Positions 50,553 through 64,000 of a stretch of DNA of 64,000 bases are shown here, one piece after another. Both the position numbers and the translations under genes were made by a program. The stretch is from Massilia sp. Root335 (lineage in GTDB: Bacteria > Pseudomonadota > Gammaproteobacteria > Burkholderiales > Burkholderiaceae_D). The notes under the pieces were generated by a model. The model did no database searches, had not been told where the DNA came from, and was given only the letters and a program-made list of their open reading frames with translations. Position 1 is the stretch's first letter; each line of letters starts with the position of its first letter. Location: NCBI RefSeq assembly GCF_001425685.1, contig NZ_LMCY01000005.1:62271-126270 (forward strand), in the 5' to 3' direction.

Positions 50553-52436
50553 ATGCCACGTTCCCACGCCGTCCTGTCCCGCCACGCGATCGCCATCGCC
50601 GTCCTCGTACTGTTGTCCGCTTGCGGCAGCAGCGACTATATCGATGTCGCACCAGTCTCGACCGCCCCCGCCGCGCCGGCCGATCCGGGCTTCGTCGAGA
50701 ATGTACCGGCGCCATCCGTCGCCGCCTTCGTCGACAATGCCGCAACTAACCAACAGAGCCAGCCGACGGTCGACGTCAATGCCGGCGTGCGCGCGCTGGC
50801 GCCGTTCCTGGAACTGTGGCAACCCGTCACGCAGACGGTCGACGTCAGCACGTGGAACGGCCTGCCGGGCCAGGGCACCGTGCTGAACCAGGCCGTGCAC
50901 GACAAGAACATCCAGTACGTCGTCGACGCGACCACGCAGCGCACGGCCGCGCAGGCGACGAACGCCTACCTGGACGACCGCCAGAACCAGGCCTACAGCA
51001 TCGTCGACGGCATGGGCCCGCTGACGGCGGCCTGGCGCGCCGGAACCAGGGCGACGACGACGATCACGGCCGTCGCGCCCGACGCCACGACGGTCAAATA
51101 TGACGACGGCGGCAACGGCGCCGGCGATGCGACCACGGCCGAATTCGGCTCTGTCGTGTCGTTCATTAATGCGATGCGCAGCAATGGTTCGACGGAACCG
51201 TCCAAGCGCTTCTACAAATACCCGCGCCCGTGGCGCTGGACCAGCGCGGTCAAGGTCGTGCCGGCACTGGAACCGGCGAAAAGCCCGACGCCCGCGACGG
51301 ACGGCGGCTTCCCCAGCGGCCACACGAATGCCGCGATGCTGAATTCGCTGGCGATGGCGTACGCGCTGCCGGAGCGCTTCCAGGAAATGATCTCGCGCGG
51401 CCTGGAACTGGGCGAGAACCGCATCCTGGCCGGCATGCATTCGCCGCTGGACGTGATGGGCGGCCGCATGCTGGCGCATGCCATCTTCACGGGCAATATC
51501 AACGCCGCCGCCAACGCGACCCTGAAGCAGAAGGCCTATGCCGACGCCCACGCCTGGCTGCAGGCGCAGACGGGCACGACTGCCGACACCTTGTATGCCT
51601 ACGCGCACGGCGGCACGACCGCGACGGACCGCTTCGCCGACCACGACACGAACAAGGCGAATTATCTGCGCCGCCTGACGTTCGGCTTCACGCCCATCAA
51701 GGCGACGAATGTGCCGGCCGTCGTGCCCAAGGGCGCGGAAGCCATCCTCGAGACGCGCCTGCCCTACCTCGATGCGATGCAGCGCCGGGCCGTGCTGCGC
51801 AGCACGGCGCTGCCGTCGGGCTATCCGCTGCTGGACGACGCCGAAGGCTGGGGCCGCCTGAACCTGTTCGCCGCGGCAGACGGCTACGGCGTGTTCACCG
51901 GCAGCGTCGTCGTGACGATGGATGCGTCGCGCGGCGGCTTCTGGGCGATGGACGCCTGGCGCAACGACATTTCCGGCAGCGGCAAGCTGACCCTGAAAGG
52001 CACGGGCCGGCTGGCGCTGTATGGCAAGAACAGCTGGACGGGCGGCACCGAGATCGCCGGCGGCACGCTGGAAGCGGATGCGAACGGTGCGCTCGGCACG
52101 GGCGACGTGTATGTTGGCGGCGCGGGCACGCTCGCGAGCGCGGCGCCGGGCCAGCTCGCCATCGGCGGCAACTATGCGCAGCTGGACAAGGGTACGCTCG
52201 ACATTTCCCTCGGCGCCAATCAGGCGGGCACGGTGGCGGTGCGGGGCACGGCGACGATCGTCGGCGGCACCCTGCACGTGACATTCGCCGGCGGCTTCAG
52301 GCCGTCCGCCGGCACCACGTATCCAGTGCTGTCGGCCGCCAGCCGCAAGGGCGTGTTCACGAACGTCGTCGCGGACGGCTACAAGTCGACCGTCATCTAC
52401 AGCAACACGGGCGTGTCCGTGCGGATCGACGGCTGA
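50553..52436 (+). CDS. PAP2-family acid phosphatase lipoprotein with autotransporter-type repeat
   Basis: 627 residues; ATG 50553 with GGAG six bases upstream. A lipobox (LLSAC) near residue 28 marks a lipoprotein. The PAP2/vanadium-haloperoxidase fold motifs are in order: KxxxxxxRP in KRFYKYPRPW (about 217-226), PSGHT (about 253-257) and SRxxxxxHxxxD-like ENRILAGMHSPLD (about 288-300). After about residue 470 comes an autotransporter-associated beta-strand unit (GTGRLALYGKNSWTGGTEI, then AGGTLEADANGALG) with no membrane barrel. It probably dephosphorylates organic phosphates at the cell surface. The repeat part is a helix-like stalk for display or binding. Confidence 0.85.
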   Translation: MPRSHAVLSRHAIAIAVLVLLSACGSSDYIDVAPVSTAPAAPADPGFVENVPAPSVAAFVDNAATNQQSQPTVDVNAGVRALAPFLELWQPVTQTVDVSTWNGLPGQGTVLNQAVHDKNIQYVVDATTQRTAAQATNAYLDDRQNQAYSIVDGMGPLTAAWRAGTRATTTITAVAPDATTVKYDDGGNGAGDATTAEFGSVVSFINAMRSNGSTEPSKRFYKYPRPWRWTSAVKVVPALEPAKSPTPATDGGFPSGHTNAAMLNSLAMAYALPERFQEMISRGLELGENRILAGMHSPLDVMGGRMLAHAIFTGNINAAANATLKQKAYADAHAWLQAQTGTTADTLYAYAHGGTTATDRFADHDTNKANYLRRLTFGFTPIKATNVPAVVPKGAEAILETRLPYLDAMQRRAVLRSTALPSGYPLLDDAEGWGRLNLFAAADGYGVFTGSVVVTMDASRGGFWAMDAWRNDISGSGKLTLKGTGRLALYGKNSWTGGTEIAGGTLEADANGALGTGDVYVGGAGTLASAAPGQLAIGGNYAQLDKGTLDISLGANQAGTVAVRGTATIVGGTLHVTFAGGFRPSAGTTYPVLSAASRKGVFTNVVADGYKSTVIYSNTGVSVRIDG

Positions 52437-52593: not shown

Positions 52594-54168
52594 ATGAGAC
52601 ACCGCCGCACCGTGCTGCGCGCCGCTCTGGCGCTGGCTTTTACCACTCCATTCGCACTGCCCGCGACTGCCCTGGCGGCGGACGCCGGGCGCCAGATCGT
52701 CATCGACGCCAAGGCGCCGACCGTCGCCCGCGATCACTTCGCCGACCTGTCGGTGGGCTCCGACTATCCGGGCACGCTGATCCGCGACGACAGCCTGGCC
52801 CAGCTCAAGATTGCGAAGGATGAACTGGGCTTCCGCTACATCCGCTTCCACGCCATCTTCCACGACGTGCTGGGCACTTATAAAGTTGTCGACGGCAAGC
52901 CGGTGTACGACTGGACCAAGCTCGACTACCTGTACGACAAGCTGCTGGGCATGGGCATCAAGCCGTTCGTCGAGCTGGGCTTCACGCCGGACGCGATGAA
53001 GACGTCGGACCAGACGATTTTCTACTGGAAGGGCAACACGTCGCATCCGAAACCGGACCAGTGGGCGGGCCTCGTCGACGCCTTCGTGCGCCACGTGCAG
53101 CAGCGCTACGGCAAGGACGAAGTGCGCACCTGGTTCTTCGAAGTGTGGAACGAGCCGAACCTGGACGGCTTCTGGGAAAAGGCCGACCAGAAGGCCTATT
53201 TCGACCTGTTCGACCTGACGTCGAAGACACTCAAGGCGATCGACCCGGCTTTGCGCGTGGGCGGTCCGTCGACGGCGGGCGCGGCCTGGGTGCCGGAATT
53301 CCTCGCGCACACGAAGCAGAGCGGCGCGGCCGTCGACTTCATCACGACGCACACGTACGGCGTGAACGGCGGCTTCCTGGACGAAGAGGGCAAGGGCGAC
53401 AACAAGCTGTCCCCATCGCCAGACGGCATCGTCGGCGACGTGCGCAAGGTGCGGAAGGAAATCGAAGCATCCTACCTGCCCAAGCTGCCCTTGTACTTCA
53501 CGGAATGGAGCACCAGCTACTCGCCGCGCGACCTCGTGCACGATTCGTACATGAGCGCCGCCTACATCCTCAGCAAGCTGAAGGCGACCGAGGGCATCGC
53601 GCAGGGCATGAGCTACTGGACCTACACGGACCTGTTCGAGGAACCGGGCCCGCCGACCGCGCCGTTCGAAGGCGGTTTCGGCCTGATGAACCCGCAGGGC
53701 ATCCGCAAGCCGGCCTGGTTCGCGTACAAGTACATGCATGAGCTGGGCGACCAGCAGGTGCAGACCACCGACAAGCAAAGCTGGGTGACGAAGGACGCGA
53801 ACGGCGTGCAGGTGCTTGCGTGGGACTTCCAGACGCCGGACATGGGCAACAAGAGCAACCGTCCGTTCTTCGGCGTGGTCCAGCCGACGCACGCCGGCAC
53901 GCCTTTGAAACTCGCGCTGAAGGGCATGAAGCCGGGCACGTACACGATGCAGGTTTATCGGACGGGCTTCAAGGCCAACGATGCGCACACGGCCTACATC
54001 GAGATGGGCAAGCCGAAGACGCTGACGGGCGAGCAGGTCGCCAAGCTGCAGGCGCAGACCGTGGACAAGCCGGAGACGCGCAAGGTCACGGTCGCGGCGA
54101 ACGGCACGGCCAGCGTGCAGGTGCCGATGCGCGTCAACGACGTCGTGCTGGTGAAGATCGCGAAATGA
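52594..54168 (+). CDS. Secreted GH39-family glycoside hydrolase (beta-xylosidase type)
   Basis: 524 residues; ATG 52594 with AAGGA upstream; signal peptide ending near ALAADA. The TIM barrel carries the acid/base Glu in EVWNEPNLDGFW (about 187) and the nucleophile Glu in LYFTEWSTSY (about 303), the paired positions of GH39. The C-terminal ~110 residues form a beta-rich domain. GH39 enzymes remove beta-xylose or alpha-iduronate from oligosaccharides. The exact sugar is not shown. Likely acts outside the cytoplasm on plant or matrix polysaccharide. No transporter or regulator gene is adjacent. Confidence 0.9.
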   Translation: MRHRRTVLRAALALAFTTPFALPATALAADAGRQIVIDAKAPTVARDHFADLSVGSDYPGTLIRDDSLAQLKIAKDELGFRYIRFHAIFHDVLGTYKVVDGKPVYDWTKLDYLYDKLLGMGIKPFVELGFTPDAMKTSDQTIFYWKGNTSHPKPDQWAGLVDAFVRHVQQRYGKDEVRTWFFEVWNEPNLDGFWEKADQKAYFDLFDLTSKTLKAIDPALRVGGPSTAGAAWVPEFLAHTKQSGAAVDFITTHTYGVNGGFLDEEGKGDNKLSPSPDGIVGDVRKVRKEIEASYLPKLPLYFTEWSTSYSPRDLVHDSYMSAAYILSKLKATEGIAQGMSYWTYTDLFEEPGPPTAPFEGGFGLMNPQGIRKPAWFAYKYMHELGDQQVQTTDKQSWVTKDANGVQVLAWDFQTPDMGNKSNRPFFGVVQPTHAGTPLKLALKGMKPGTYTMQVYRTGFKANDAHTAYIEMGKPKTLTGEQVAKLQAQTVDKPETRKVTVAANGTASVQVPMRVNDVVLVKIAK

Positions 54169-54186
54169 TCTAAGCGCCTATTTCAG

Positions 54187-54258
54187 TAGGGTGGGCACCC
54201 CGTGCCCACCATGCGTTACCGAGACGCGAGCGTCCGGTGGGCGGAAGCCCGCCCTGCC
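54187..54258. repeat. Palindromic extragenic repeat, family 2 copy C (extended)
   Basis: GTAG plus the GTGGGCACCCCGTGCCCAC core, then ATGCGTTACCGAGACG and a second stem (GGTGGGCGG with CCGCCC-like GCCCGCCC). It lies between the convergent GH39 and YfcC genes. Confidence 0.75.
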
Positions 54259-54275
54259 GGGACAGGTTCCAGGTC

Positions 54276-55685
54276 TCAGCTCCACTGCATGAGACACGGC
54301 GGCACCAGCAGGGCGAGGGCCAGCACGAGGTAGATCAGCTGCAGCGGGATCATCCACCTGGCCCACGTGATCCAGGGCACGCGCGCGAGCGCGAGCACGC
54401 CGACCGTGATGCCGGACGTCGGGATCATCGGCGTCGACAGCTCACCCAGCTGAAACGCGAGGATCGCGGTCTGGCGCGTGACGCCCACCAGGTCCGCGAG
54501 CGGCGCCATGATCGGCATCGTCAGCGCGGCCTGGCCCGTGCCCGAGTGGATGAAGAAGTTGATCACCGACTGGATCAGGTACATCTTCTGTGCCGCGAAC
54601 ACGGGGTGGCTCGACTGCACGAGCGGCATCAGCCCGTGCAGCATCGTGTCGATGATGTGGGCGTCGCGCGCGAGGATCATCGTGCCGCGCGCGACCGCGA
54701 TCACGAGCGCCGTCGGTGCCAGGTCTTTTGCCCCCTGCATGAATGCCGCCACCCAGTTGTCGGGCCCGAGGCGGCCGACGATGCCCACGACGATCGCCAT
54801 GGATAAGAACAGCGCCGCGATCTCGTCGATGTACCAGCCGAATTTCACGACCCCGATCACCATCGAACCCAGCGCCAGCGCGAAGATCGCCAGCACCGCC
54901 TTGTGCCGTCCCATCATGCGGTCGCCCGTTTGCCCGGACGGCGCGGCCGCCGGATGTTCCAGGCGCCGCGCCTGGTCCAGCACATAGGTCGGGCTGAGCA
55001 TGGGGTTCTGCTTGACGCGGGCCGCGTACCACATCAGGAAGACGATCGTGACGGACGTCGCCGCCACCCACACGACCAAACGATACCCGATCCCGGAAAA
55101 CACGGGCACGCCCGCGATGCCTTGCGCGATGCCGACGTTGAACGGATTGAGGAAGGCCGCGCCGAAACCGGCCTGCGAACCGAGGAAGGGAATCGACACG
55201 CCGACGATGGTGTCGTAGCCGAGCGCCAGCGCCAGCGGCACGAAGATCAGGACGAACGGAATCGCCTCCTCGTTCATGCCGAACGTGGCGCCGCCGAGCG
55301 AGAACAGCGTGACGAAGACCGGAATCAGCGCGGCGCGCACGAGCGCCGAGTGCTCGTGCATGCGGGCGATCGAGCGGATGCCGGTGTCGATCGCGTCGGT
55401 CCGCTGCACGACGGCGAACGCGCCGCCGACGACCAGCACGAAGCCGATGATCTGCGCCGCCTCGACGAAACCCTTGATGGGCGCCTTCATCAGCGCGACG
55501 ATGCCCTGCGGCGCGTTCGCGACGTAGTGGAACGAGGCCGGGTCGACGAGCTGCTTGCCGTTCACGAGATGGGTCTCGTACTTCCCGCCGGGGACGAGCC
55601 ACGTCGCCAGCGCGATCAGGGAGAGAATCGCGAACAGCAGCACGAAGGTATTGGGCATTCGCAGGCGCATACGCATTGGCCTCAT
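54276..55685 (-). CDS. YfcC/DcuC-like carboxylate or peptide transporter
   Basis: 469 residues with about 11-12 membrane segments. The family segment GGATFGMNEEAIPFVLIFVPLALALGYD and a late LSTPMIPTSGITVGVLALA are typical of YfcC family (C4-dicarboxylate anaerobic carrier superfamily) proteins, some of which act on arginine, ornithine or short peptides. ATG 55685 overlaps the stop of the M14 deacylase gene (ATGA). In context it would bring a beta-aspartyl dipeptide or its products across the inner membrane. Confidence 0.82.
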   Translation of the reverse strand: MRPMRMRLRMPNTFVLLFAILSLIALATWLVPGGKYETHLVNGKQLVDPASFHYVANAPQGIVALMKAPIKGFVEAAQIIGFVLVVGGAFAVVQRTDAIDTGIRSIARMHEHSALVRAALIPVFVTLFSLGGATFGMNEEAIPFVLIFVPLALALGYDTIVGVSIPFLGSQAGFGAAFLNPFNVGIAQGIAGVPVFSGIGYRLVVWVAATSVTIVFLMWYAARVKQNPMLSPTYVLDQARRLEHPAAAPSGQTGDRMMGRHKAVLAIFALALGSMVIGVVKFGWYIDEIAALFLSMAIVVGIVGRLGPDNWVAAFMQGAKDLAPTALVIAVARGTMILARDAHIIDTMLHGLMPLVQSSHPVFAAQKMYLIQSVINFFIHSGTGQAALTMPIMAPLADLVGVTRQTAILAFQLGELSTPMIPTSGITVGVLALARVPWITWARWMIPLQLIYLVLALALLVPPCLMQWS

Positions 55686-56800
55686 TGACTCAGCAGGGAA
55701 CCGGAACGGAAGGGCGTCGTGCCCGCGATCTTACAGACGTGCATGCCCCGCAGCAGGTGGCGATGCGCGGTGCTGGCGAACAGCAGCCCGTCGCGGCTCG
55801 CACGCACGGTGGCCGTCGCGCCGGTCACGGGGTTGACGATGTCGGCGACGGCGTCCCCGGCCTTGACCTCGTCGCCCAGCGCTTTCAGGAAGACGAGCAC
55901 GCCCGACTGCGGCGCGTGCAGCGGCTCGACGGCTTCGAGCGGAGACGGTTCGCACAGCGGCGCGGGCAGCGCGGCCGGCGGGATGTCGACGATGCCCTCG
56001 CGTGCCAGCCATTGCAGCAGCGCCTGCGCATCCTGTTCGGCGTAATCGTAGCGCACGTCCATCTCGCCGCGCAGTTCGACCGTGACGGCGGCGCAGGCCG
56101 GCGGGATCGGGATCGCCGGTCCGAAGTGCGCGGCGAGCTCCCACCACAACCGGCCGCACGCTTCGTCGAACGGCTCGCCGCCCGACCCGGCGGACAGCAG
56201 GTACGCGCGCGCGCCGAGCAGCGCCGCCAGCGGTTTTACGCGGTCCGCCAGCGCGGGACCGGTGTACACGTGCAGCAGGGCTTCGTTGTCGCAGTGCAGA
56301 TCGAGCACGATGTCGGCGTCGATCGCCAGCGCCAGCAGCGTTTTCTTCAAGACCTGGGTCGCATCCAGCGGCTCCCAGCGATCGACGGCGGCGCGCGCTT
56401 GCGCGCGGATCGCGGCGACGTTGGCGGCCGCGTCGGGCCCGAGCCTGCCGGCCAGCGTCGTTTTGAGTTCGCCGGCGACGTGGCGGAAGGCGCGGTTGAA
56501 ATTCACGCCGGAGGCAAGGTCGAAACGCCCGAGCGGCGTGCCGTGCACGACCTGCGACAGCCCGATGGGATTCGCGGCCGGCACGAGGATCACTTCGCCG
56601 CGGATGCGGCCTTCAAGATCGAGCCTTTCCAGTTCGCGCCGCAAATAATGCGCGACCAGCATCGCGGGGACTTCGTCCGCATGCAGCGACGCCTGGATAT
56701 AAACCTTCTTGCCGCTGCCCGCGCTGCCGTAGTGGCAGGAGGTCAGCTGACAGGTGGCGAGGCCAGGCTCGGTGGCGATCGGGTGTGTCTTCGTATGCAT
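55682..56800 (-). CDS. Succinylglutamate desuccinylase/aspartoacylase (M14-type) family zinc hydrolase
   Basis: 372 residues; ATG 56800 (MHTKTHPIATEPG) with AGGAG upstream, the longer upstream reading being untranslated. Zinc ligands HxxE in QASLHADEVPA (about residue 42-45), then DLHCDNE (about 177), and catalytic Glu in VTVELRGEMD. The last ~80 residues form a lipoyl-like barrel (PQSGVLVFLKALGDEVKAGDA). Family members deacylate N-acyl amino acids or split beta-aspartyl peptides. The four-base overlap with the YfcC-type gene indicates one operon. No signal peptide, so cytoplasmic. Confidence 0.86.
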   Translation of the reverse strand: MHTKTHPIATEPGLATCQLTSCHYGSAGSGKKVYIQASLHADEVPAMLVAHYLRRELERLDLEGRIRGEVILVPAANPIGLSQVVHGTPLGRFDLASGVNFNRAFRHVAGELKTTLAGRLGPDAAANVAAIRAQARAAVDRWEPLDATQVLKKTLLALAIDADIVLDLHCDNEALLHVYTGPALADRVKPLAALLGARAYLLSAGSGGEPFDEACGRLWWELAAHFGPAIPIPPACAAVTVELRGEMDVRYDYAEQDAQALLQWLAREGIVDIPPAALPAPLCEPSPLEAVEPLHAPQSGVLVFLKALGDEVKAGDAVADIVNPVTGATATVRASRDGLLFASTAHRHLLRGMHVCKIAGTTPFRSGSLLSQ

Positions 56801-56953
56801 GCGCAAGATCTCCTGGCGGCTGCTGCTGCGGCCGATTATGTATGAATTTTTACACAACGTAAATCGATGAAAGCCGATTTTCAAAATCTTGTTGAACTTT
56901 TCGAGGCACCTGTTTTACATTTAAAAACATTAACTCATTGACATCCGGTTACG
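56801..56953. promoter_or_regulatory. Divergent promoter region between deacylase and rpiR-type genes
   Basis: 153 bp of AT-rich DNA between divergent starts. An inverted repeat TGTTTT-N7-AAAACA lies at 56911-56929 and a TTGAAC (56892) to TTACAT element overlaps it. It is a plausible operator for the neighbouring regulator, controlling both sides. Confidence 0.45.
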
Positions 56954-57922
56954 ATGGCTCCTCCCGCCCCGCGCAGCGCTTCGCCCGACATCGGTTTCGC
57001 CGAGTCTTCGCTCGGCCAGTCGCTGTTGCGCGTGCTGGCCGGGGGATCGGCGTCGAACCGCGCGATCGCGGACTACGTGCTGCGCAACCAGGTGCGCGTG
57101 ACGGCGCTCGGCATCGAGGAACTTGCCGACGCGTGCGATGTGTCGACGGCGACCATCAGCCGGTTCGCGCGCGATCTCGGTTTTAAAAATTACGCGGCGA
57201 TGCGCGGCGCGGTGGCGGAGACGCTGCAGTCCGTACTGCAGCCGGTCGAAAAGCTGCGCAGCACGATCGCGCGCCGCGCCGCGAAGGTGTCGCCCGCGCT
57301 GGAAAGCCTGGGCTATGCGGAGGCCGCGCTGACGGCGACCCGGCGCGGCCTGGCCGGCAGCGAGATCGACCGCGTCGGCACGGTGCTCACGAAGGCGCGC
57401 ACCGTGTACGTGCTGGGGTTCGGGCTGTCGTCGTTCCTCGCGGGCGCGCTCGCGATGCACCTGCAGCCTTTCTGCCGTCACGTGGTGGAAGTGGCCGCGA
57501 GCGGCGGCACGGAGGTGGCGGCCAGCCATCTCGCCACCGTCACCGGCCGTGACGTGCTGGTCGTGATTTCGCTGCCGCGCTACACGCTGGACGCCGCGTC
57601 GCTGACCCGGTTCGCGCGCGCCGCCGGCGCGACCATCGTCTCCATCACGGACTCGCCCGCGTCGCCGCTCGCCGAGCTGGGACACCACGTGCTGTATGCG
57701 CACAGCGCGCATCCCGTGCTGCCCAGCAGTTCCAGCGCCGCGCTGGCCGTCATCGAAGCGCTGGCCGTGGCGCTGATGACGTCCAACAAGGCCAACGTCG
57801 CCAAGGCGGCCCGCCACACCGAGGCGATCGCCGCCTACCTCCACGGCGAGCACCAGATCCGTACCGGCGGCACGCAGAAAAAAGAGGGCGTGCGCAAGCG
57901 TCCCGCCGTCAAGAAGTCCTGA
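56954..57922 (+). CDS. RpiR (MurR/RpiR) family transcriptional regulator
   Basis: 322 residues; ATG 56954. N-terminal HTH_6 domain (NRAIADYVLRNQVRVTALGI..., then CDVSTATISRFARDLGFKNYAAM) followed by a SIS domain (about 140-270: VYVLGFGLSSFLAG, then VLVVISLPRYTLDA) that binds phosphosugars or other metabolites. The tail is Lys-rich. Divergent from the deacylase/transporter operon and 35 bp before the TonB receptor, so it most likely controls this whole locus in response to a metabolite. Confidence 0.9.
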   Translation: MAPPAPRSASPDIGFAESSLGQSLLRVLAGGSASNRAIADYVLRNQVRVTALGIEELADACDVSTATISRFARDLGFKNYAAMRGAVAETLQSVLQPVEKLRSTIARRAAKVSPALESLGYAEAALTATRRGLAGSEIDRVGTVLTKARTVYVLGFGLSSFLAGALAMHLQPFCRHVVEVAASGGTEVAASHLATVTGRDVLVVISLPRYTLDAASLTRFARAAGATIVSITDSPASPLAELGHHVLYAHSAHPVLPSSSSAALAVIEALAVALMTSNKANVAKAARHTEAIAAYLHGEHQIRTGGTQKKEGVRKRPAVKKS

Positions 57923-57957
57923 GTCACCACCCAAGACACCGAGAGAGGATGCACCGC

Positions 57958-60696
57958 ATGACCAAGCACATTACGAGAGCCTTGCAACCGACCGTCCTCG
58001 CGGCGGCCGTGGGCCTGATGGCGCAACAGGCATACGCGCAGGCGCAGGCGGACGAACCGAAAATGCACCGCGTGGAAATCACCGGTTCGTCGATCAAGCG
58101 CATCGACACCGAGACCGCGCTGCCGGTGCAACTGATCTCGCGCGAGGACATCGAGAAGATGGGCGCGACGACCGCCGCCGAACTGGTGAAGAACATCAGT
58201 GCGAACACGGCGCCGCTGACGGACGGTCCCAGCATCTCGGACGGCACCTCCGGCCAGCGCGGCATGAATGGCGCCAACCTGCGCGGCCTGGGCGTCTCGT
58301 CCACGCTGATCCTGCTGAACGGCCGGCGCCTCGCCAACTTCGCGTCCCCGGGCGACAACTCGGGCGTCGACTTGAACAACATCCCGGCCGGCGCGATCCA
58401 GCGCGTCGAGGTGCTCAAGGACGGCGCGTCGGCGATCTACGGCACGGATGCCATCGGCGGCGTGATCAACTTCATCACCCGCAAGGATTACACGGGCATC
58501 GACCTGGCCGCGTCGGCCGCCGGCACCCAGCAGGGCGGCGCCGGCAAGCGCACCCTGAGTCTCAGCGGCGGCACGGGCGATTTGTCCACCGACCGCTTCA
58601 ACGTGTTCGGCGTGCTCGACGTGCAGCAGCTCGACCGCCTGCGCTCGGGCCAGCGCCGCTTCATCGCGGAGCGCCCGCTCGCGACGACCCTGCCGGCGCA
58701 GATGTCCAGCAACACCTTCCCCGCCAACGTCGACATCTCGGGCGCGCAGCGCGCCGCCCTGATCGCCGCGGGCCTGCTGCCGGCCGGCAGCAAGTCCAGC
58801 CGCGTCAATCCGAGCTCGCCGAAGTGCAATCCGCCCGCCACCGTCTACGCCGAAAAGGGACCGGGCGGCGCGGCCGGCTGCAGCTACGACTACATGGAAG
58901 ACACGGAGATCTATCCCGATTCGCGCAAGATCGGCTTCATCGGCCGCGCGACGTTCCAGCTCGATGCGGACAACCAGCTGTTCGCGGAACTCGTGCAGAC
59001 GGAGGCGACGTCGAAATACGTGCTGTCGCCGAACCCCGTCCGCATCCGCAATCTGCCGGTGAGCATCCTGCCGGACGCCTATCGGACGGCGTTGTCGGCA
59101 CCGGGCCTGCCCGACACCTTCAGCGGCATCCGCTACCGCATGGCGGAAGCGGGCAACCGCAGCAACGAGGTGACGAGCACCGGACAGCGCCTGCTGCTGG
59201 GCGCCACCGGCACGCTCGCGGGCTGGGACTACGACGTCGCGCTGGGCCGCGCCGAAAACAAGGCCGTCGACAAGTACGTGAACGGCTACGTCCTGTACGA
59301 CAAGTTCGAGGCCGGCGTGCGCGCGGGGACGATCAACCCGTTCGCCCCGTCCTCGCAGGCGGGACTGGACCTGATCAACAGCATCAAGATCAACGACGAG
59401 GCGAGAAAGGCCAAGGGCGTGTCCACTTCGCTCGACGGCAAGATGTCGCGCTCGTTGACGGCGCTGGCGGGCGGCGATCTCGCGCTCGCCGTCGGCGGCG
59501 AATTGCGGCACGAGCACCAGACGTTCACGCCGTCGGAACTGCTCAAGTCGAACAACATCGCCGGTGACCGCGACAGCACGATCCCGGCCGGCGAACTGGC
59601 CGACGTCGAGACGGCGGACAATACGAGAAAGGTGGCGTCCGTGTTCACCGAGGTGGTCGCGCCGTTCACCAAAGAGCTGGAGATGCAGTTCGCGCTGCGC
59701 TGGGACCATTACAGCGAAGTGGGCAACACGACCAATCCGAAGATCGGCCTGCGCTGGCAGCCGATGCAATCGCTGCTGCTGCGCGCGTCGGCCGGCACGG
59801 GCTTCCGCGCGCCGTCGCTGTCGGACCTGAAGCGCCCGACGATCTTCGGCACGACGGCCGGCATCCTCACCGACCCGCAGTGCGTCAAGCAGGAAGGCAG
59901 CATCGATACGTGTACCGACCAGTGGAACGTCGAACGCCGCTCGAACCCGAACCTCAAGCCCGAGAAATCGCGCCAGTTCACGCTCGGCGTCGTGTTCGAG
60001 CCGGTCAAGCGCACGAGCCTCTCGATCGATTACTGGAACATCGAGAAGAAGGACGTCATCAGCACGCTGGGCGAGCAGGTCATCATCGAAAACCCGGCGG
60101 CCTACAACGGCAAGTACATCCAGCGCGACGAGGACGGCTTCATCTCCAACATCCTCCTCATGAAGGAAAACCAGGGCAAGCTGAAGACGTCGGGCTTCGA
60201 TATCGGCGGCGACTGGCGCACCGAGCGCGGGCCGTGGGGCCGCTTCGGCATCAACCTGTCCGGCACGCTGATCCTGCACTACGACCGCCAGTTCGGTCCG
60301 GACGAGCCGTACCGCAGCAACCTGGGCGTGTTCCTGAACGACCAGGTGATCCAGAAGTGGCGCCACCGCGTGAACTTCGAATGGGACAACGGTCCGCTCG
60401 CGCTGACCCTGGCGAACCAGTACTCGACCGGGTACACGGATCAGAACACGACCTACGACCCGTACACGGACAAGCTCCTCGCACCCAATCACGTGAAATA
60501 CTATTCGCTGTGGGACCTGACCGGCAGCTGGACGGTCAACAAGCAGTTGAAGGTGCGCGCAGGTGTGCTGAACCTGTTCAACGCGGACCCGCCGTTCTCG
60601 AACCAGGCCTGGTTCTTCCTGGCCGGGTATGACCCGAGCTACACGGACCCGCGCGGCCGCAGCGCGTTCGTGAGCGCGAACTACTCGTTCCGCTGA
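57958..60696 (+). CDS. TonB-dependent receptor of peptide/polymer-uptake locus
   Basis: 912 residues. Of two ATGs, 57958 (MTKHITRALQPTVLAAAV) has a better-spaced GAGAGG than 57949. Signal peptide to about ...AYA. The plug reads VEITGSSIKRIDTETALPVQLISREDI and RGLGVSSTLILLNGRRLANF, typical of large TonB receptors for oligomers (CirA-like long N-terminal group). The barrel ends NYSFR with the usual terminal aromatic. It starts 36 bp after the regulator and ends one base before the cyanophycinase start, so co-transcription is likely. Confidence 0.93.
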   Translation: MTKHITRALQPTVLAAAVGLMAQQAYAQAQADEPKMHRVEITGSSIKRIDTETALPVQLISREDIEKMGATTAAELVKNISANTAPLTDGPSISDGTSGQRGMNGANLRGLGVSSTLILLNGRRLANFASPGDNSGVDLNNIPAGAIQRVEVLKDGASAIYGTDAIGGVINFITRKDYTGIDLAASAAGTQQGGAGKRTLSLSGGTGDLSTDRFNVFGVLDVQQLDRLRSGQRRFIAERPLATTLPAQMSSNTFPANVDISGAQRAALIAAGLLPAGSKSSRVNPSSPKCNPPATVYAEKGPGGAAGCSYDYMEDTEIYPDSRKIGFIGRATFQLDADNQLFAELVQTEATSKYVLSPNPVRIRNLPVSILPDAYRTALSAPGLPDTFSGIRYRMAEAGNRSNEVTSTGQRLLLGATGTLAGWDYDVALGRAENKAVDKYVNGYVLYDKFEAGVRAGTINPFAPSSQAGLDLINSIKINDEARKAKGVSTSLDGKMSRSLTALAGGDLALAVGGELRHEHQTFTPSELLKSNNIAGDRDSTIPAGELADVETADNTRKVASVFTEVVAPFTKELEMQFALRWDHYSEVGNTTNPKIGLRWQPMQSLLLRASAGTGFRAPSLSDLKRPTIFGTTAGILTDPQCVKQEGSIDTCTDQWNVERRSNPNLKPEKSRQFTLGVVFEPVKRTSLSIDYWNIEKKDVISTLGEQVIIENPAAYNGKYIQRDEDGFISNILLMKENQGKLKTSGFDIGGDWRTERGPWGRFGINLSGTLILHYDRQFGPDEPYRSNLGVFLNDQVIQKWRHRVNFEWDNGPLALTLANQYSTGYTDQNTTYDPYTDKLLAPNHVKYYSLWDLTGSWTVNKQLKVRAGVLNLFNADPPFSNQAWFFLAGYDPSYTDPRGRSAFVSANYSFR

Positions 60697-60697
60697 C

Positions 60698-61921
60698 ATG
60701 GTCAAGAGCGTATGTTGCGCGCTGGCGCTCGTCGTCGCCAGCGCCGGCGCGGCGGCGGCCGATGCCGGTGCGGCGAGAGGATCGCTGGTCATCATCGGCG
60801 GCGGCCTGCGCGTCAATAATGCCGAGGTGTGGGAAAAAGTCGTCGCGCTGGCGGGCGGGAAGGGCGCGCGCATCGCCGTGCTCCCGACGGCCGCGGAGAA
60901 TCCCGCGAAGGAAGGCCGGCTCACCGTGGACGCCCTGAACCGCTACGGCGCGCGGGCGTTTGTCGCGCCGGTCGCGCCGCGGCTGGCCGGCCCGGACAGC
61001 ATCGACGCGGCGCGCAAGGCCGCGGACGATCCGGCCCTGGCCGATGCCGTGCGCAAGGCCGGCGGCGCCTTCTTCACGGGCGGCGATCAAGCCCGCATCA
61101 CGGGTTCCCTGCGGCGCGCCGACGGCAGCAACACGGCCGTGCTGGACGCGCTGTGGGCGCTGTACCGGCGCGGCGGCGTCATCGCGGGCACGAGCGCCGG
61201 CGCCGCGATCATGAGCAGCACGATGTTCTACGACCCGCCGCTGGACGTGATGCCGGTGCTGAAGAACGGCGTGGTCGACGGCAAGGACGTGGCGCCGGGA
61301 CTGGGCTTCATCGGCACCGACGTCTTCGTCGACCAGCACCTGCTCGCGCGCGGGCGCTTCGGCCGCATGCTGCCCGCGATGCTGGCCAAGGGATACACGC
61401 TGGGACTGGGCATCGACGAGAACACGGCAGCCATCGTCGGGCCGGCGCGCGACGTGACCGTGATCGGTTACCGCGGCGCGCTCGTGCTCGACCTGGCGGG
61501 TGCAAGCACCGACAAGGCCAAGGCGGGGTTCAACCTGTCCAACGCGCGCATCAGTTATCTGGACAGCGGCGACCGGTTCAACCTGGCCACGCGCACCTAT
61601 GTGCCGGGACCGGACAAGGAGCCCGTGGACCGGAAGTACGTCGAGCACCGCGCGCCGATCTTCTACACGGACATCCTCGGCAACACGGCGGTCGCTGACC
61701 TGCTCGAAAAACTGGTGGACAGCGATCTGCAGCGCGCCGTCGGCGTGGCGTTCGAAGGGCCGGACAGCCAGTCTCCGGAACGCGGGTTCGAGTTCACGTT
61801 CACACGCGTGCCGGACAGCGCGGAATACGTCACGAACCGCGAGGATGCGTATTCGGTCTACCGGATCAGGATGGACGTGCGGCCGGTGCGGGTGAAGCAG
61901 CCGTTTTATACGGTGGAGTAG
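60698..61921 (+). CDS. Exported cyanophycinase-like S51 serine peptidase
   Basis: 407 residues; ATG 60698 begins one base after the receptor stop. Signal peptide MVKSVCCALALVVASAGAAAA; the domain reads GSLVIIGGGLR, TGGDQARITG, then the nucleophile Ser in IAGTSAGAAIMS (about residue 165), GLGFIGTDVFVDQHLLARGR and a His/Glu-containing segment. This is the S51 dipeptidase E/cyanophycinase group. The length and signal peptide match the extracellular type (CphE) rather than the cytoplasmic CphB of about 275-300 residues. It releases beta-Asp-Arg dipeptides from cyanophycin. The target polymer is inferred. Confidence 0.88.
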   Translation: MVKSVCCALALVVASAGAAAADAGAARGSLVIIGGGLRVNNAEVWEKVVALAGGKGARIAVLPTAAENPAKEGRLTVDALNRYGARAFVAPVAPRLAGPDSIDAARKAADDPALADAVRKAGGAFFTGGDQARITGSLRRADGSNTAVLDALWALYRRGGVIAGTSAGAAIMSSTMFYDPPLDVMPVLKNGVVDGKDVAPGLGFIGTDVFVDQHLLARGRFGRMLPAMLAKGYTLGLGIDENTAAIVGPARDVTVIGYRGALVLDLAGASTDKAKAGFNLSNARISYLDSGDRFNLATRTYVPGPDKEPVDRKYVEHRAPIFYTDILGNTAVADLLEKLVDSDLQRAVGVAFEGPDSQSPERGFEFTFTRVPDSAEYVTNREDAYSVYRIRMDVRPVRVKQPFYTVE

Positions 61922-61997
61922 AGCTACGGTGCAGCAGGGCTCCGGCGCAGGAGGGCTACGGTGGAGTGGGGTGTGTGAGGAGGGCGGCGCACTAAAA

Positions 61998-62105
61998 ACC
62001 GTCGTTCCCGCGCAGGCGGGAACCCAAGCAATGTACGCGTCGCGTCAGCTCCAGCCGCAGGACTGCATGCAAAACTTGGATCCCCGCCTGCGCGGGGACG
62101 ACGGT
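61998..62105. repeat. REPIN-like inverted repeat pair (family 3)
   Basis: Two 31-bp units, ACCGTCGTTCCCGCGCAGG... at 61998 and its near complement ending ...ACGACGGT at 62105, face each other about 46 bp apart with only a few differences. Each unit carries its own CCCGC/GCGGG palindrome. It fills the gap between convergent cyanophycinase and uvrA genes. Confidence 0.8.
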
Positions 62106-62148
62106 GAAGCGGTTCGGGCCACGATCGATCTCATGGCCCTGCCGCTCT

Positions 62149-64000
<1,852 letters not shown>

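Follow-up and report, generated by a model that had tools for sequence, protein, structure and literature searches.

A predicted cyanophycin utilisation locus in Massilia sp. Root335 that links a CphZ-like hydrolase to a DcuC-family carrier

How would a bacterium that meets cyanophycin outside its cells cut the polymer, bring in the dipeptide beta-Asp-Arg and split it, and which protein would carry that dipeptide across the inner membrane? This question is raised by five linked genes in a stretch of 64,000 nucleotides from Massilia sp. Root335 (C5:62271-126270 of the source genome, G000, which comprises 7.11 Mb in 71 contigs), which we call the window. All five reading frames were found at the places given by an original prediction made from the letters alone, with one base between the receptor stop and the S51 start and an overlap of four bases between the carrier ATG and the hydrolase stop. 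Their domain models are DcuC (PF03606), AstE_AspA_cat (PF24827), HTH_6 with SIS, Plug with barrel, and Peptidase_S51; the closest named relatives of the proteins belong to Massilia and Telluria. We propose, with a probability of about 0.85, that these genes form a cyanophycin utilisation locus. The genes, their families, their active-site residues and their linkage, as well as a repeat pair upstream of cphZ, are direct observations, and families, residues and linkage support the predicted union of an exported cyanophycinase, a CphZ-type hydrolase, a TonB receptor, a YfcC-like carrier and a regulator in one cyanophycin or beta-Asp-Arg locus. The five-gene arrangement is beyond chance, as it is kept across genera.

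In the proposed mechanism, the CphE-like exported serine peptidase would act outside the cytoplasm and cut cyanophycin or its oligomers to beta-Asp-Arg; fragments or the dipeptide would pass the outer membrane through the TonB receptor; the DcuC/YfcC-like protein would move beta-Asp-Arg across the inner membrane; and cytoplasmic CphZ would hydrolyse it to Asp and Arg. Beta-Asp-Lys could be a co-substrate. Control, probably repression, of the cphZ-carrier operon would be exerted by the RpiR-family protein from two operators 29 bp apart, and would perhaps extend to the receptor-peptidase run to which rpiR itself belongs. What we infer in this scheme is the substrate of each step, the direction of transport, where the first cut falls (in the periplasm or outside), and the sense and inducer of the control. 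Table 1 gives the coordinates.

Table 1. Features of the candidate cyanophycin utilisation locus, in positions of the window.
Feature	Position	Strand	Basis
DcuC/YfcC-like inner-membrane carrier, proposed beta-Asp-Arg transporter	54276..55685	-	PF03606, cphZ linkage
CphZ-like M14 hydrolase (predicted beta-Asp-Arg to Asp + Arg)	55682..56800	-	8ein match, conserved motifs
Promoter-like site TTTACG-17-CATAAT 5' of cphZ-carrier	56835..56863	-	sigma-70-like match
Operator-like 16-bp inverted repeat 1	56839..56854	none	inside promoter spacer, touches -10
Operator-like 16-bp inverted repeat 2	56868..56883	none	start 29 bp from repeat 1 start
RpiR-family regulator, HTH_6 + SIS	56954..57922	+	domain models
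TonB-dependent receptor, Plug + barrel	57949..60696	+	domain models
Exported S51 cyanophycinase, CphE-like (predicted)	60698..61921	+	TIGR02069, Peptidase_S51

At 146 bits, the S51 protein scores above the cut-off of the cyanophycinase model TIGR02069 (126.6), and the four PDB chains that it matches at E<=0.001 are all cyanophycinases, or in one case a cyanophycinase-like chain; with no dipeptidase E chain among them, an ordinary dipeptidase E was rejected, in agreement with the predicted grouping. Aligned to 3en0, it retains the GDQ glutamine, the GTSAG serine and the D-Q-H...R-x-R-x-x-R pocket, and the CphB residues Q101, S132, D172, Q173, R178, R180 and R183 are all aligned in it; Law 2009 is said to be the source of this list of catalytic and pocket residues and of its importance. 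The catalytic set Ser166, His214 and Glu241 is kept, and the N terminus has a signal-like stretch, judged by eye only. The available part of the description of CphE from Pseudomonas alcaligenes DIP1 (PMC3235067) presents a similar protein of about 400 amino acids with a Sec-type signal and a proposed Ser171/His224/Glu251 set, which fits the residues found here: the His-Glu spacing is 27 in both, and the Ser-His spacing is 48 here and 53 in DIP1, as compared by residue numbers rather than by alignment. The source genome has five S51 matches, four of them above the cut-off; one paralogue above it (G000:C28, L015:5823-10140) has as neighbours, by eye, dadA, an alanine racemase gene and an Lrp-type regulator gene.

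The M14 hydrolase was predicted to be of the CphZ kind, and it does match chain 8ein at 258 bits (residues 45-392 of the 400-amino-acid frame) and 8eip at 255 bits; both PDB entries are named succinylglutamate desuccinylase, and we take them to be CphZ. Its residues H40/E43, H169 and E242 (metal ligands and catalytic Glu) sit in conserved HADE, LDLHCDN and TVEL motifs, the catalytic Glu being the position mutated to Ala in 8eip. A TTG at 56884 was rejected as the start of cphZ; the start is more likely at 56800, because the database relatives, mostly of 372 amino acids, begin there, and the stretch 5' of this corrected start (56801-56953) contains the promoter- and operator-like sites. Sharon et al. 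2023 reportedly placed CphZ, there named AotO, in the aot operon of Pseudomonas, where it likewise adjoins an importer that would take its dipeptide across the inner membrane; that importer is reportedly an ABC system, whereas the window locus has a DcuC/YfcC-like carrier.

Co-occurrence of the five genes in related genomes, which the original prediction had proposed to examine, is strong. None of the three outcomes named as refuting that prediction was observed, the S51 protein falling among cyanophycinases and the hydrolase with 8ein. For this analysis we used the best 80 of at least 541 confirmed loci from a CphZ-anchored scan, a set that leans to close kin; neighbours were counted by tblastn, and some loci reach contig edges (e.g. 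L027, L029, L058, L061 and L094). In 39 of the 80 loci, cphZ has the carrier no more than 1.5 kb away; of these 39, 36 contain an S51 gene, 37 a receptor, 35 both of these, 23 RpiR and 6 astA. An aot-like set for an arginine-type ABC transporter is found in 17 loci (S51 in 6, receptor in 5, both in 4, RpiR in 1, astA in 5), and carrier and ABC set never occur together (0/80). The exceptions among the carrier-type loci are L042, which has no receptor, L058 and L061, which are cut inside the receptor by a contig end, and L100 (a Myxococcales metagenome-assembled genome), where the carrier stands beside cphZ with neither S51 nor receptor. The gene order varies: in Massilia, Janthinobacterium and some Rugamonas, S51-receptor-RpiR is divergent from cphZ-carrier; a Duganella-type group of seven has two S51 genes and no RpiR; and in Roseateles and Paucibacter the receptor is divergent from S51-cphZ-carrier-regulator-astA. 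The order in L068 is receptor, S51, arginine-type ABC, cphZ, AraC-type regulator, astC, astA, astA, astD, astB, ten of its proteins being assigned by family models, several just under equivalog cut-offs, and L097 has the same order by tblastn. Because ast genes (arginine succinyltransferase; the whole set in L068) occur in some relatives, arginine is the likely prize of the locus.

A family sample of 116 genomes, including the source genome, points the same way; its counts ignore kinship, and its neighbour distances were read from coordinates. The carrier was found at E<=1e-60 in 18 genomes, in 16 of them at 69% identity or more and in the other two at 34% and 39%. All 16 close carriers have cphZ overlapping or at most 40 bases away, and in 15 of these 16 genomes an S51 gene lies within 5 kb of the carrier-linked cphZ. 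Across the sample, S51 is present in 28 genomes, cphZ in 41 and both in 26, G173 and G251 having S51 without cphZ. At 15 of 23 places, receptor relatives of at least 46% identity have S51 or cphZ no more than 5 kb away, against none of 59 places for those of 42% or less (at most seven candidates were scored per genome); the next scored receptor of the source genome is 37% identical to that of the locus.

What would the carrier transport? It matches PF03606 (DcuC) at 331 bits, with a gathering cut-off of 23.1. In a phylum sample, it was found at E<=1e-60 in 34 of 398 genomes, with identities of at most 43% when the source genome is excluded, and none of the 29 new neighbourhoods of distant carriers (1.5 kb per side) contains cphZ. 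Six of the distant carriers stand in the order receptor-carrier-IadA, with IadA above cut-off in the five scanned, and wider stretches add a divergent S51 gene in 6/6. Other distant carriers have arginine deiminase (3 scanned) or ornithine carbamoyltransferase (1 scanned) as a neighbour; family models were run on neighbours in these nine scanned cases, the remainder being assigned by resemblance. A tree of 73 carriers places the 40 that are linked to cphZ in a single group (100/99) and the 6 linked to IadA in a second (99/94), the deeper joins being unsure owing to some long branches. The likeliest role of the carrier is transport of beta-Asp-Arg, since two unrelated isoaspartyl dipeptide hydrolases, CphZ and IadA, share the family and an ABC importer replaces it elsewhere. 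We consider it fairly probable that this DcuC/YfcC clade comprises inner-membrane beta-aspartyl dipeptide transporters, exchangeable with the aot-type ABC system and serving both CphZ and IadA, and that the RpiR/SIS regulator senses a peptide or amino acid rather than a sugar phosphate. A role as an exchanger, exporting ornithine or aspartate or importing free arginine while the dipeptide enters otherwise, seems unlikely for the carrier. The NCBIfam name, 'putative basic amino acid antiporter', and the deiminase or carbamoyltransferase neighbours of its more distant relatives would suit such an exchanger, but no further transporter of the inner membrane resembling the aot set was found in the carrier-type cphZ loci, the carrier takes the place of the ABC set, and the nearer branch of the tree is IadA-linked rather than deiminase-linked.

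The same IadA-type loci bear on the substrate of the whole locus. Their S51 proteins (L151-L156) have about 600 amino acids with a long N-terminal part, and Thr replaces the second pocket Gln, by eye. Another beta-aspartyl peptide, such as the isoaspartyl peptides of aged protein, would be the true substrate only at long odds: the carrier is shared with the IadA-type loci, whose S51 proteins are under the cyanophycinase cut-off, and IadA is promiscuous according to the available part of PMC10206079, but the S51 protein of the window passes that cut-off with its whole pocket kept, and arginine catabolism genes occur in relatives. A second kind of locus was seen in L157:4056-13503 (G253:C226), which contains an enolase-superfamily protein, a YfcC-like carrier (480 bits, cut-off 500), a receptor, S51, an M20-type amidohydrolase, CphZ, a regulator and astA.

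If the substrate is cyanophycin, whose polymer would it be? The original prediction found no cyanophycin synthetase gene (cphA) in the window and reasoned that this would make the cell a scavenger of foreign polymer. This argument fails, as the source genome has cphA above the cut-off of 850 on C12 (994 bits) and C37 (916 bits), and so do all 16 locus-bearing genomes of the family sample; in the whole sample cphA is present in 83 of 116 genomes, 80 of them above cut-off. On C37 (L014:6889-13767) it belongs to an operon-like run of an iaaA-like gene (PRK10226, 103 bits, cut-off 567), cphB (259 bits) and cphA1, and a second, divergent cphA-like gene scores 833 bits against 850. The cell can probably make, store and mobilise its own polymer inside, and would use this separate locus for polymer met outside. 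A tentative alternative, which we rate somewhat below even, is that the polymer used has been released by the cell or by its kin and is not foreign (cyanobacterial); the frequency of cphA in these genomes agrees with it, but a cell's own cphA is uninformative about the source of outside polymer, both sources may hold, and stored polymer can be handled by the separate cphB and the iaaA-like gene. The polymer used may thus be foreign, from kin or own.

The region between cphZ and rpiR contains the sole sigma-70-like match in 54000-62200 (8.2 kb), and this site and its spacing fall within a conserved stretch. There are 23 carrier-type loci with RpiR, of which 21, together with the window, were used for the operator analysis, L053 and L061 being excluded by an orientation and gap rule. 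The repeat pair at 29-bp spacing is found in 10 of 11 Massilia-type regions, which include the window and were the source of the motif, and recurs in 9 of the 11 remaining RpiR-bearing regions, the exceptions being L058 and L063. Only the latter 11 are a real test, because the motif was drawn after viewing the Massilia-type regions; likewise, that the best operator scores in the window fall at its own two sites is circular. No operator-like pair was found before the eight lone Massilia cphZ genes tested (L027 and L052 not among them). Among Duganella-type loci without rpiR (L048-L051, L054, L055 and L057; L071 and L089 were left out as too short), one operator-like site 5' of cphZ is retained in 7/7, a hint of an RpiR protein elsewhere in those genomes. 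The simple reading is that cphZ and the carrier would be repressed by the adjoining RpiR protein.

It is important to set out the observations that weigh against this interpretation. First, the parts can be separated: G212 has no S51 beside cphZ, its receptor-S51 pair being on another contig; 8 of the 23 close receptors are away from both S51 and cphZ; 24 of the 80 cphZ loci have neither transporter (S51 in 1, receptor in 0); and the source genome has a second cphZ, a lone paralogue of 71% identity (G000:C7, L021:9581-10699) with no S51, receptor or carrier adjoining. CphZ therefore does not require the locus. Second, the carrier scores 380 bits with the YfcC equivalog PRK11588 (cut-off 500), and no PDB relative of it was found by sequence; the prediction of a YfcC-like transporter stands as a DcuC-family relationship, and the carrier is not classed as YfcC. 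Third, the S51 proteins of the IadA-type loci score 88-112 bits, under 126.6. Finally, 0.6 matches to the promoter-like site are expected by chance, so that alone it is not above chance, and an RpiR/SIS regulator is odd for a peptide locus because SIS domains usually bind sugar phosphates. Loci resembling that of the lone cphZ on C7 are L030, L031, L033-L037 and L045.

The literature already describes loci for cyanophycin utilisation, as well as a TonB receptor encoded near a cyanophycinase. The locus of Ben Hania et al. 2017 (cyanophycinase, iadA, transporter), as cited in the available part of PMC10206079, is similar in that cyanophycinase, dipeptidase and transporter for outside polymer are clustered; it has iadA, in a Bacteroidetes strain framed there as without cphA, whereas the window locus has CphZ instead, together with a carrier of the DcuC/YfcC kind, a TonB receptor and a regulator of the RpiR family, and its genome contains cphA. 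With no IadA above cut-off found in the source genome, the window locus falls outside that three-gene definition; CphZ would stand in for IadA, and the locus would work like that of Ben Hania et al. In Citromicrobium sp. JLT1363, a TonB receptor near the cyanophycinase gene was read as serving cyanophycin uptake (PMC3400609); this adjacency is shared, and CphZ, the carrier and the operator are not described in the portion of that source available. In the literature searched, we found no description of the form with CphZ, carrier, receptor and RpiR, of the transporter swap or of the operator pair, and did not meet a beta-Asp-Arg transport role for this carrier group. Searches joining cyanophycinase and Massilia, or cyanophycin and YfcC, found nothing, those for YfcC and dipeptide were off topic by title, and none joining cyanophycin to DcuC or C4-dicarboxylate carriers was among the matches listed. 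The locus offers a specific functional hypothesis for a carrier group for which we found no assigned substrate, and it joins receptor, enzyme, carrier, hydrolase and operator in a single unit that can be tested. It also suggests re-use of cyanophycin outside cells in communities whose own members, judging by the frequency of cphA in the family, produce the polymer.

Two neighbouring genes of the window complete the description. At 50553-52436, a PAP2-type phosphatase domain is fused to autotransporter-like repeats, and a glycoside hydrolase family 39 protein (52594-54168) adjoins the locus, being kept there solely in close Massilia relatives.

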